NCBI GenBank assembly: GCA_021827255.1
Contig: JAKAWO010000003.1
Coordinates: forward strand, 1 to 37,910
Reading direction: 5' to 3'
Length of the DNA stretch: 37,910 bases
Source of the DNA: Acidobacteriota bacterium
Lineage (GTDB): Bacteria > Acidobacteriota > Terriglobia > UBA7540
Shown piece by piece: positions 8,022 through 12,983 of the stretch. Every line of letters starts with the position of its first letter. Position 1 is the stretch's first letter. The notes beneath the pieces are model-generated. The model saw only the letters and a program-made list of their open reading frames with translations. It did no database searches and was not told where the DNA came from. The position numbers and the translations under genes were made by a program.

Positions 8022-9563
8022 CTATTCCCGCAGCAGCGCGGCAAGGGAGGGACTGTGCTTGTAGCCGAAGGTCGGATGGTAGCAATAGAGAATGCGGAGC
8101 GGGCGCTCACCGAGAAGCGAGAGGTTGACTTTTTCCTCCGCCCAACCCCGCGAGCCCATCGCTTCCTCGAAGGGCGGGACGCTCGACGGGTTGCGCCCCA
8201 GCAGGAAACGCTGAATGGAGAAGTAGGCGTCGTCGCCAAGGACCACGAGGGTGCGAAGATTGGGAAATAGTTCCAGCTCGGCGCGCAGGTGCTGAGTGCA
8301 ATTTTGCACGGCTCGCTCGGGGACGTGCGGCCCCGAGGAGTGGCAGCGCACGGCGTCGGTCAGCACGAAGCGGCTCTTGAACTCCGCGAAGTCCTTCACG
8401 CCCAGCAGCTCAAAAAGGGCCGCCGTAAACCGGATCGTTTTCCCTTGGTTGCGGTAGAGGGAATTCTCCGAGCGGAGGGGCGCGCAGCGGCCGACCACGG
8501 CAATTTGCACGGAGTTTAAATCGGGATAATCCCTTTGCACGTGCTGGGCCAGAAATTCACGGGGCGGCAGCCGGATGGTGGTGATCGCGGCGCATTCGCG
8601 GCAGGCTTCGATCCGTAGCCGAAGCGATTCGGCGGCGAGTCCCGGAATGCGCGCTTTGGGGCTGGTGATGGGCGGACCGGTGATGGCGAGCTGGAGCAGC
8701 AGTTCGGCGGTGGCGCCGCGCGGTCCGAAGATGGCGTTGTCAATCAACCGGACGCTTCCCACTCGCGCGGCCACCAGCGCCACGGTTCCAGCCGTGATTT
8801 GTTGGACCGGCTTGAGCGTGGCGGGATGCACGATCGCCACGTAGTCAAGGTTGACGCCGGGATCAGCCAGGAGGATTTCCCGCATCGCCGCGACCACTCG
8901 GCTGGTTTCGTCCTCGCCATCGTGGACCATTTCCTGGGCTCGCGCCAGACTGCGCGAAAGAGCGAGCGCCGACCGCCGCTCGGCGTCGCCCAAGTAAAGA
9001 TTGCGCGAGCTCAAGGCCAGGCCGTCTTCGTCACGCACGATGGGGCAAAGAACCAGGCGCGGGCTCAGGTTAAAATCCTCCACCAGGCGGCGAATAATGG
9101 CGGCCTGCTGAAAATCTTTCTGTCCAAAGTAAGCAATATCGGGTCGAACGATGTTGAAAAGCTTCAGCACCACGACGGCGACGCCGCGAAAATGGCCAGG
9201 ACGCGCGCGCCCCTCAAGCGGCTTACCGAGCGGCCCGGGATCCACCCAGGTTCCGAACCCCTCCGGGTACATTTCGCTTGCGGAGGGCGCAAAGATGGCC
9301 TCCACATTGTAAGCGCCGAGCCGGTCAATATCCTGGGCAAGCTGCCGCGGGTAACGCTCCAAGTCCTCGCCGGCGCCGAACTGGGCAGGATTCACAAAGA
9401 TGGAGACAACAACGACGTCGCATTGGCGCTTGGCTTGCCGCACCAGGCTCAGGTGGCCTTCGTGCAGCGCGCCCATGGTGGGCACGAGGCCGACGGATCT
9501 TCCGCCTGCCCGCGCTTCTTTGATGAAGGCTCGGATCTCTTCGATGGTCTTGATCACTCGCAT
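8022..9563 (-). CDS. panC: Pantothenate synthetase (pantoate-beta-alanine ligase) fused to a C-terminal uracil-DNA-glycosylase-like (Fe-S type) domain
   Basis: 513 aa single ORF. Residues ~1-282 are PanC (PTMGALHEGHLSLV, FVNPAQFGAGEDLERYPR, FGQKDFQQ, DGLALSSRN, VRLIDN). Residues ~305-513 carry C-x2-C (CREC), LTDAVRCHSSGPHVPERAVQNC (C-x14-C), LELFPNLRTLVVLGDDAYF and CYHPTFGY, resembling family 4/5 UDGs. Confidence 0.9.
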   Translation of the reverse strand: MRVIKTIEEIRAFIKEARAGGRSVGLVPTMGALHEGHLSLVRQAKRQCDVVVVSIFVNPAQFGAGEDLERYPRQLAQDIDRLGAYNVEAIFAPSASEMYPEGFGTWVDPGPLGKPLEGRARPGHFRGVAVVVLKLFNIVRPDIAYFGQKDFQQAAIIRRLVEDFNLSPRLVLCPIVRDEDGLALSSRNLYLGDAERRSALALSRSLARAQEMVHDGEDETSRVVAAMREILLADPGVNLDYVAIVHPATLKPVQQITAGTVALVAARVGSVRLIDNAIFGPRGATAELLLQLAITGPPITSPKARIPGLAAESLRLRIEACRECAAITTIRLPPREFLAQHVQRDYPDLNSVQIAVVGRCAPLRSENSLYRNQGKTIRFTAALFELLGVKDFAEFKSRFVLTDAVRCHSSGPHVPERAVQNCTQHLRAELELFPNLRTLVVLGDDAYFSIQRFLLGRNPSSVPPFEEAMGSRGWAEEKVNLSLLGERPLRILYCYHPTFGYKHSPSLAALLRE

Positions 9564-9780: not shown

Positions 9781-10662
9781 TCAGACCTTTCGCGCGGCTT
9801 CTTTTTCAAACTGCTCGCGCACACTGGCAGACCAGTGGTAGGACTCGGCATCCGCCGGATAGCGCCCCTGTTCTACGTCGGCTTTGAACTGCTCCATAGC
9901 TTGCTGAGTGGCCCGCCGAAGGTCGGCATAAGGGCGCACAAACTTGGCGGGCGGGGTAAAACTCATTCCCACCAGATCGTGGAAGACCAGCACTTGGCCA
10001 TCACAGTCGGGCCCGGCGCCGATGCCGATGGTCGGAATCCTCAGCCGTCGAGTAATCAGCCGAGCCAACTCGCGCGGCATTGCCTCGAGCACCACGGCAA
10101 AGGCCCCGGCGTCCTCCACGGCCTGGGCGTCGCTCGCAAGCTCGCCGGCGGATTCAAGCGTCCTCCCTTGCGCGCTGTAGCCGCCGAGTCGGTTCACCGA
10201 TTGCGGCGTCAGGCCGATGTGAGCCATCACTGGGATTTCCGCGTCCAGCAAACGGCGGATCACCCCAGCGCGCTTTCGCCCGCCTTCCAGCTTGATGGCT
10301 TCGGCGCCGCCCTCCTTCACCAAGCGCAAGGACGCGGCCAGGGCTTCCTTTTCCCCCAGGTGATAGGAACCGAAAGGCAAATCGGCCACCAGGAGGGCGC
10401 GCCGCGCGCCGCGCCGCGCCGCCCGCAAATGATGGAGCATCTCCTCCAGCGTCACCGGCACGGTTGAATTGTAGCCTAGGACGGTCTGCCCCAGGCTATC
10501 GCCGACCAGCAAAACGTCAAAGCCGGCTTCATCCACCATTCGCGCCGTTGGATAATCGTAAGCCGTGAGGCAGGTGATTTTTTCTCCCCGCAGCTTGCGC
10601 TCGAGGAGGATCGGGACGGTCATCTTGCTCACGGCCGCTTCGCGGTCCATGGCAACCTCCAA
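9781..10662 (-). CDS. panB: 3-methyl-2-oxobutanoate hydroxymethyltransferase
   Basis: 293 aa; KITCLTAYDYPTARMVDEAGFDVLLVGDSLGQTVLGYNSTVPVTLEEMLHH, VADLPFGSY, IGIGAGPDCDGQVLVFHDLVG. Confidence 0.98.
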   Translation of the reverse strand: MEVAMDREAAVSKMTVPILLERKLRGEKITCLTAYDYPTARMVDEAGFDVLLVGDSLGQTVLGYNSTVPVTLEEMLHHLRAARRGARRALLVADLPFGSYHLGEKEALAASLRLVKEGGAEAIKLEGGRKRAGVIRRLLDAEIPVMAHIGLTPQSVNRLGGYSAQGRTLESAGELASDAQAVEDAGAFAVVLEAMPRELARLITRRLRIPTIGIGAGPDCDGQVLVFHDLVGMSFTPPAKFVRPYADLRRATQQAMEQFKADVEQGRYPADAESYHWSASVREQFEKEAARKV

Positions 10663-10714: not shown

Positions 10715-11380
10715 TCAGTCCGCCGTAGCGGATCCGAGCGGCAGATAATACTGAGTCCCCTTGACCGGCTGGCTCAGGCGCGTGAGCAACTGCTGCAGAT
10801 CTTCGCCGCGACCGACAAAATCAATTTCGGAGGTCTCAATCACCAGCAGGTTGCTCGCCTGATAATGGAAGAAGAAATGCTCGTAAGCGTTGACCACAGC
10901 TTCCAGATACTCATCCGAAATTCGGTGCTCGAAGGGAACATTCTTCTTCTCAATGCGCTCTCTGAGCTTCTCCGGCTTCGCTTGCAAGTATATCACCAGA
11001 TCCGGGATCGGAATCTGCTCGGCCAGCAGAGCATGGTACTCCTCGTAAAGCGCCAGCTCCGCGTCGCTCAGGTTTAGGTTGGCGAAGATGCGGTCCTTCT
11101 CAAAGATAAAATCGCTGACGACCGTGCGGCGGGCAGTGGAAGCGAGATCGAGGTCGCTGAGCAGCCTATAGCGACGCAACAGAAAATAGGCCTGCGCCTG
11201 GAAAGCCGCCCCCGGCCGGTCGCGATAAAAACCTTCCAGAAATGGATTGTCCTCCGCGTCGCGGAGACGTTCAGCGCGCAGGCGGTCGGCCAGGATGTCC
11301 GCTAAGGAGGTTTTGCCGACGCGAATCGGCCCCTCGACCGCGATGAACCTCGGCGGGTCGTGTTCTGGCAGGCGGATCAC
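10715..11380 (-). CDS. Deoxynucleoside kinase (dAK/dGK-type)
   Basis: 221 aa; P-loop FIAVEGPIRVGKTSLADILA, FIFEKDRIFANLNL, PDLVIYLQAKPEKLRERIEKKN. GTG start overlaps the folK stop (GTGA). Confidence 0.92.
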   Translation of the reverse strand: MIRLPEHDPPRFIAVEGPIRVGKTSLADILADRLRAERLRDAEDNPFLEGFYRDRPGAAFQAQAYFLLRRYRLLSDLDLASTARRTVVSDFIFEKDRIFANLNLSDAELALYEEYHALLAEQIPIPDLVIYLQAKPEKLRERIEKKNVPFEHRISDEYLEAVVNAYEHFFFHYQASNLLVIETSEIDFVGRGEDLQQLLTRLSQPVKGTQYYLPLGSATAD

Positions 11381-11889
11381 TCGCCCTCGCGGCGATTCAT
11401 AGACTCTTTCAAGCGGATCACTTGGCCCGCGTCCCGGGTTTCCGCCAGCAGCTCGAGCACCGTGCGCAGGGTGGCGGGATGCCGAAGGGTGGGGGCAAGC
11501 TCCCGCAGCGGAACCAGCACGAACCTCCGCTCCGCCAAGCGGGGATGCGGAATCGTGAGCCGGGCCACGCGAACGAGAGCATTTTCATAGAGCAGGATGT
11601 CAATGTCAATCGGCCGCGGTCCGAGCCGACGGCCGGGGCGCCGGCCGATGGCTCGCTCGATTTTCTTGAGCGCGCTGAGCAGCGACAGCGGCATCCTTTC
11701 CGTTTCTGCTTCCGCGACGCAGTTGATGAACCAAGCCTGAGCCGGAAACCCCACGGGCTCGCTGCGATAGAATGACGAAACACGTTTGACGCGCACGCCG
11801 GCGCTGGACATCTGCTCGAGCGCCTGGCGAAGGTGCGCGACGCGGTCGCCGAGGTTCGAGCCGAGTGAGAGGTAAACGCGCTTGCCCAT
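11377..11889 (-). CDS. folK: 2-amino-4-hydroxy-6-hydroxymethyldihydropteridine diphosphokinase
   Basis: MGKRVYLSLGSNLGDRVAHLRQALEQM, SSFYRSEPVGFPAQAWFINCVAEAET, GRRPGRRLGPRPIDIDILLYEN, LTIPHPRLAERRFVLVPL. ORF track extends upstream to a TTG at 11955 overlapping the ruvB stop; the ATG at 11889 fits the domain start better. Confidence 0.95.
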   Translation of the reverse strand: MGKRVYLSLGSNLGDRVAHLRQALEQMSSAGVRVKRVSSFYRSEPVGFPAQAWFINCVAEAETERMPLSLLSALKKIERAIGRRPGRRLGPRPIDIDILLYENALVRVARLTIPHPRLAERRFVLVPLRELAPTLRHPATLRTVLELLAETRDAGQVIRLKESMNRREGE

Positions 11890-11951
11890 CAGAATCGCCA
11901 GCGTTCGATGGCTCCCGCGCCTCGTTCTGCCGCCGGGCGCGGCGGCTGGCT

Positions 11952-12983
11952 TCAACCAAACAGGGTCGGGGCGCCGCCGACGGGCGGCAGGGGCATTTGA
12001 AGGTGTTGATAGGCCGCTTCGTTGGCCCGTCGCCCGCTTTTGGTGCGGCTGATGAATCCGATTTGCAGCAGGTACGGCTCAACCATATCCACCAGCGTAT
12101 CCACTTCTTCGTTGAGCGTTGCAGAGATCGCCTCCACGCCGACCGGCCCGCCGTGATAATGTCGAATGATGGTGGAAAGAAAGGTGCGATCCAGGTCGTC
12201 AAGCCCCTGCGCATCCACGCCTTCGAGTTCGAGCGCCTGGCGAGCGACCTCGAGAGTGATCTGGCCGTCCGCCTTGACCTCCGCAAAGTCCCGCACGCGC
12301 CGCAGCAGCCGGTTGGCGATGCGCGGTGTGCCGCGCGCCCGCCGCGCGATTTCGCCCGCCGCCGGCGCATCGAGCTTCGCCTCCAAAATCTCCGCCGACC
12401 GCAGGATAATTTTCTGCAAGTCCTCGACCGAATAAAATTGCAGGTGAAAGAACAATCCAAAGCGGTTCCGCAGCGGCGCCGAAAGGCTTCCAGCGCGCGT
12501 GGTCGCGCCCACTAGCGTGAATTTTTTCAGCGGCACGTTGATGGTCTTGGCGAACATCCCCTTGTCCACCACAAAATCCACCTTAAAGTCTTCCATCGCC
12601 GGGTACAGAAACTCCTCGATATTGATGGGCAGCCGGTGAACTTCATCAATAAACATGACGTCACCCTCGCCAAGATTGGTCAGGATGCCCATTAGGTCGC
12701 CGGTGCGCTCGAGCGATGGCCCCGAGGTGGTGGTGATCTTCGCGCCCATCGCGTTGGCGATGATGTAAGCGAGCGTGGTTTTGCCGAGGCCCGGCGGCCC
12801 ATAGAGCAGGGTGTGCTCGAGCGGCTCGCCACGCTGCTTTGCCGCCTGCAAGCCGATCGAGAGCTTTTCCACCACCGCCATCTGCCCCACGTATTCGCCC
12901 AGCGAGGGCGGCCGCAGCGTGCGGTTAAAGCTCTCCTCGTCTTTCGAGATCAAATCGGAGGAAACCAGTCTCACTCTCGACAT
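11952..12983 (-). CDS. ruvB: Holliday junction branch migration DNA helicase RuvB
   Basis: 343 aa; [64 protein letters not shown]-terminal [22 protein letters not shown]. Confidence 0.99.

Follow-up and report, generated by a model that had tools for sequence, protein, structure and literature searches.

A conserved fusion of PanC with a uracil-DNA glycosylase superfamily-like, putative Fe–S domain in Acidobacteria

The residues described for family 4 uracil-DNA glycosylases (UDGs) are Glu41, Gly42, Glu47, Phe54, Asn80, Asn89 and His155, of which Asn89 is equivalent to Asn120 of family 5 and Asn80 corresponds to Asn123 of Escherichia coli UDG (PMC5387724). The k2/Km of the wild-type family 4 enzyme is 2.4e5, compared with 2.7e2 for E41Q and 5.5e3 for N80A (PMC5387724). 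In one report, the N123D substitution was used to make E. coli UDG act on cytosine, and the N123D:L191A mutant tells cytosine from methylcytosine, its choice of base being shifted (PMC3989344). UdgX is defined by the motif GEQPG together with the KRRIH R-loop (PMC10359453). The locus described here encodes a domain that appears to belong to the same superfamily, on one polypeptide with pantoate–beta-alanine ligase (PanC). A PanC–UDG fusion was found neither in a plasmid search nor in the literature searched.

The window, i.e. the whole stretch of 37,910 nucleotides that was analysed, had previously been read from its sequence alone. This sequence-only reading proposed an uninterrupted 513-codon frame at 8022–9563, coordinates that proved to be exact; the frame is read from the minus strand, with an ATG start and a stop codon at 8022–8024. 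It encodes a complete PanC, a linker of ~22 residues and a C-terminal domain of ~209 residues, as follows.

8022–9563, minus strand: panC::UDG-like fusion ORF, 513 residues and a stop codon; one ORF in 26 genomes
8718–9563, minus strand: PanC (pantoate–beta-alanine ligase) domain, residues 1–282 (TIGR00018, PF02569, Foldseek match 2ejc)
9444–9470, minus strand: HIGH-like nucleotide-binding motif ALHEGHLSL, residues 32–40; His34, Gly36 and His37 invariant in 14 aligned fusions
8652–8717, minus strand: interdomain linker, residues 283–304; lowest conservation (39% mean pairwise identity), low pLDDT from residue 296
8025–8651, minus strand: Fe–S UDG-superfamily-like domain, residues 305–513 (PF03167, hhalign, AlphaFold2 and Foldseek)

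A complete PanC with intact motifs had been claimed for residues ~1–282, and the searches agree. TIGR00018 gives 337 bits on the fusion protein (cut-off 212.75), Pfam PF02569 (Pantoate_ligase) matches the PanC part with E = 4e-105, and Foldseek matches this part to Thermotoga maritima PanC (2ejc) with E = 3.8e-36, a TM score of 0.97 on the target and 53% identity over the aligned stretch. The fused protein is the sole PanC match in the genome of the window and the only PanC found in fusion-carrying genomes, so that the enzyme is presumably functional. A conserved internal translation start was not apparent by eye in the alignment of the linker.

The C-terminal part, submitted as a slightly longer query, matched no Pfam or NCBIfam family at E < 1, and residues 305–513 of the window protein scored 22.3 bits with PF03167 against a gathering cut-off of 24.3. 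An annotation as plain PanC hides this second domain, which in the window protein falls slightly short of the Pfam cut-off. In individual scans, 24 of the 26 fused homologues matched PF03167 (best E = 6.7e-8), and those of G429 (28.2) and G425 (26.3) were above its cut-off when the genomes were searched. Searched against the PDB, the profile of the domain gave a single match, T. thermophilus UDGb (2d3y; E = 0.0083). Using hhalign, the nearest profile was that of an unnamed UDG-like group (probability 96.9%, E = 1.5e-10), and family 5 was matched with a probability of 94.7% (E = 6e-8); family 4 and a Mug-like group gave 2.0 and 0.6%, respectively, and the values for six profiles of unrelated proteins at these loci were 0.1–0.9%. 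The PDB structures that Foldseek matches best to the AlphaFold2 model of the domain (pLDDT 79.7, pTM 0.81) are UDGs of families 4 and 5, TDG and UdgX (probability ~1.00, TM about 0.5), and the UDG fold envisaged in the sequence-only reading is thus borne out by the structure prediction. Membership of the UDG superfamily is well supported by these profiles and models. Membership of any named UDG family is not supported, because the defining motifs fail.

The unnamed group contains a standalone UDG-like protein (L086:3317–4096, contig C10 of G399) with the motif ISEAAPVNRDDYFY and no HP. It is ~41% identical to Enterococcus genes annotated as 'uracil-DNA glycosylase family protein', and its only match within the phylum sample is the fused domain of the window. 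The Enterococcus members (L166:4941–5537 and L167:4944–5537) are without the Fe–S cysteines and HP and represent another UDG-fold group in which the active site is rebuilt. In a family 5 UDG (L151, contig C39 of G414) the third cluster Cys is replaced by Trp (AAVRWAPP) and the first Cys pair is shifted (ASQCCPR), and the cluster may be altered in this protein. A search of 396 genomes of the phylum with the domain profile gave, besides the window, one weak match of 56 residues, beyond which no standalone ancestor of the C-terminal domain was found in these genomes.

Residue invariance was scored over the 24 fused sequences that were compared. The following residues are identical in all 24.

8592–8603, minus strand: CREC, putative 4Fe–4S ligands Cys321 and Cys324
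8487–8489, minus strand: Arg359, at the motif 1 position of family 4 Glu41 according to profile alignments
8454–8456, minus strand: Tyr370, probably equivalent, judged by spacing, to the stacking Phe54 of family 4
8355–8357, minus strand: Asp403 (LTD), aligned with the base-reading Asn80 position of family 4
8343–8345, minus strand: Cys407, third putative cluster ligand
8298–8300, minus strand: Cys422, fourth putative cluster ligand
8073–8078, minus strand: His496-Pro497, motif 2 (HP)

Phe379 and His408 are also identical in 24 of 24 fused domains, and His496 aligns with His155 of family 4. The C-x2-C ... C-x14-C spacing of the 4Fe–4S cysteines in families 4 and 5 is present throughout the 24 sequences. 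The earlier description of the domain, with Fe–S ligands and HP kept and motif A degenerate, stands in its first part, as C321-x2-C324, C407-x14-C422 and H496-P497 are positioned as described. Its second part has to be revised: the family 4 motif 1, GE(A/G)PG, was not found, and in its place the fused domain has GR-x-A/S with an invariant Arg359. The family 5 motif GLAPG was not found in the aligned fused domains either, and the region aligned with the water-positioning Asn of motif 3 (family 4 Asn89, family 5 Asn120) is variable and has no conserved Asn. Since Arg359, Tyr370 and Asp403 form an invariant set (24 of 24), the site was replaced rather than eroded, and a conserved replacement motif suggests altered function rather than decay. 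We infer that the domain holds a putative 4Fe–4S cluster and probably keeps a base-type pocket, with Tyr370 for stacking and with His496. Arg359 and Asp403 would fit a ligand other than uracil, which argues against an orthodox uracil-excision enzyme. If confirmed, the fused domain stands for a UDG subgroup whose active site is conserved but different.

Most fusion loci retain the gene order ruvC-ruvA-ruvB-folK-dNK-panB-panC::UDG-like. In the window, the genes of this row, conserved in order, include the following.

9781–10662, minus strand: panB, upstream partner gene (PF02548, 3.6e-108)
10715–11380, minus strand: deoxynucleoside kinase (dNK) gene (PF01712, 5.1e-32)
11377–11955, minus strand: folK (PF01288)
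11952–12983, minus strand: ruvB (PF05496)

A deoxynucleoside kinase and ruvCAB in the same row, together with the retained HP motif and pocket aromatic, would suit an active non-canonical glycosylase or nucleosidase that was joined to PanC by fusion of neighbouring genes with no functional link. Its choice of base would be altered by the Asp that replaces the base-reading Asn, much as, in the E. coli study, the Asn-to-Asp change (N123D, in N123D:L191A) shifts base choice (PMC3989344). We consider this reading unlikely in view of the change of the motif 1 Glu to Arg, the missing Asn (family 4 Asn89, family 5 Asn120) and the ordinary UDGs in the same genomes. The domain is also less basic than family 5, though near family 4 (mean net charge +3.0 for the fused domain, compared with +17.6 for family 5 and +5.0 for family 4). 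In every one of the 40 order genomes, one or more UDG matches exceed the Pfam cut-off; where looked at, they are of family 4 and family 5 type, and uracil repair is therefore not dependent on the fused domain.

In the full-length model of the fusion (pTM 0.62, linker pLDDT < 50) the position of one domain relative to the other is not predicted and no defined contact is seen. This result and the loss of the canonical catalytic residues are what one would expect of a catalytically dead domain that only stabilizes or oligomerizes PanC or binds a partner; such a role is improbable, as a pure scaffold has no need of the invariant Arg359, Tyr370, Asp403 and His496, and sister genera have PanC without the domain.

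PanC without the UDG-like domain is present in G407, G410 and G411 of the same family (loci L076, L077 and L079) and, outside this family, in G396. The first three group together in the PanC tree (support 87/94), the backbone of which is weak, and the PanC sequences of G410 and G411 extend into fused-linker-like sequence before the stop codon. This linker remnant suggests that the domain was lost in G410 and G411 rather than that they branched before its gain, the PanC tree backbone being too weak to prove it.

A complete single-ORF fusion occurs in 26 of the 40 genomes of the order, the 25 others being 53–78% identical to the window protein, and in four further genomes (G408, G418, G421 and G430) the fusion gene is cut by contig ends. 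The 513-codon frame, put forward from one sequence, has full-length homologues in 25 other genomes, which is far beyond chance, and the PanC–UDG-like fusion is real and conserved. In a scan of one genome per species, covering 85,462 species and reaching close relatives only, 24 loci were found, all of them in Acidobacteria (some with subdivision 13 or gp13 in the title) and none outside. That two genes were joined artificially, by an assembly error or a frameshift, has a negligible probability, because the same fusion is shared by 26 genomes, which come from a wide range of metagenome projects and assemblies, and the fusion-carrying relatives have no stop codon between the PanC and UDG parts, where the sequence-only reading had advised looking for one.

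When the window is compared with G420, dN/dS is 0.161/1.8 (~0.09) in PanC and 0.13/1.27 (~0.10) in the UDG-like domain, dS being close to saturation. Pairwise identities average 61% in PanC, 54% in the C-terminal domain and 39% in the linker. Purifying selection on the C-terminal domain is about equal in strength to that on PanC.

Uracil breakdown can supply beta-alanine to PanC, and a uracil-to-beta-alanine link to the fusion was considered and rejected. Of the 40 genomes of the order, 39 lack PanD (PF02261), with PanC and PanB kept, but PanD is also missing in all but one of the same-class relatives listed, class members without the fusion included, and a D-hydantoinase/dihydropyrimidinase-type protein is over the cut-off in only five of the 40 order genomes. 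PLP decarboxylases (PF00282) were found in only 24 of these 40.

That PanC is fused here to something other than a canonical uracil-DNA glycosylase is very probably correct. A presumably working PanC is covalently joined to a putative Fe–S domain of the UDG superfamily as a family-wide, selectively maintained single protein. As to function, the UDG-fold module would be ligand- or redox-responsive and would tune or place PanC, and pantothenate synthesis would thereby follow nucleotide or redox state. Taken as a whole, PanC with a repurposed Fe–S UDG-fold module in a regulatory role is the best explanation, and we judge its chances to be somewhat short of even. That the domain regulates PanC or senses a ligand for it is, for its part, proposed tentatively and is ranked above the non-canonical glycosylase and then the scaffold. 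More doubtful is the specific form in which the UDG fold has become an Fe–S ligand or redox sensor controlling a coenzyme A precursor enzyme, where the Arg/Asp/His pocket may read a nucleotide, a base or a small charged metabolite. Three observations count against the regulatory explanation: G407, G410 and G411 have PanC without the domain, so that PanC does not strictly need it; with His496 kept some glycosylase chemistry is possible; and the full-length model does not place the domains relative to each other. If confirmed, this is a case of a metabolic enzyme that has acquired a DNA-repair fold with an iron–sulfur cluster, by which the supply of coenzyme A is tied to nucleotide or redox state.

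Among the described systems, family 5 (UDGb, e.g. T. thermophilus 2d3y) is the nearest named family by profile and shares the four-Cys pattern, LT-x2-RC and HP with the fused domain, which differs in having GR-x-A/S in place of GLAPG, in not keeping Asn120 and in being joined to PanC. The unnamed 'uracil-DNA glycosylase family protein' group (L086 and Enterococcus L166 and L167) has a similar P-x6-(F/Y)-Y type stretch after the motif 1 strand, but its members are standalone, keep the Glu in motif 1 and have no HP, and those of Enterococcus are without the cluster cysteines. UdgX shares the superfamily fold, whereas its GEQPG motif and KRRIH loop are absent from all aligned fused members. On the PanC side, residues 1–282 share motifs, score and fold (2ejc) with PanC (TIGR00018); the matched solved PanC proteins comprise ~276–306 residues, whereas the fusion protein runs on into a second domain. 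The bifunctional PanC/(d)CMP kinase (NCBIfam NF010004) is likewise a PanC with a C-terminal nucleotide-related domain, and its model matches residues 1–284 of the fusion; its second domain, however, is a kinase, and the fusion matches the PanC half only (310 bits against a cut-off of 524).
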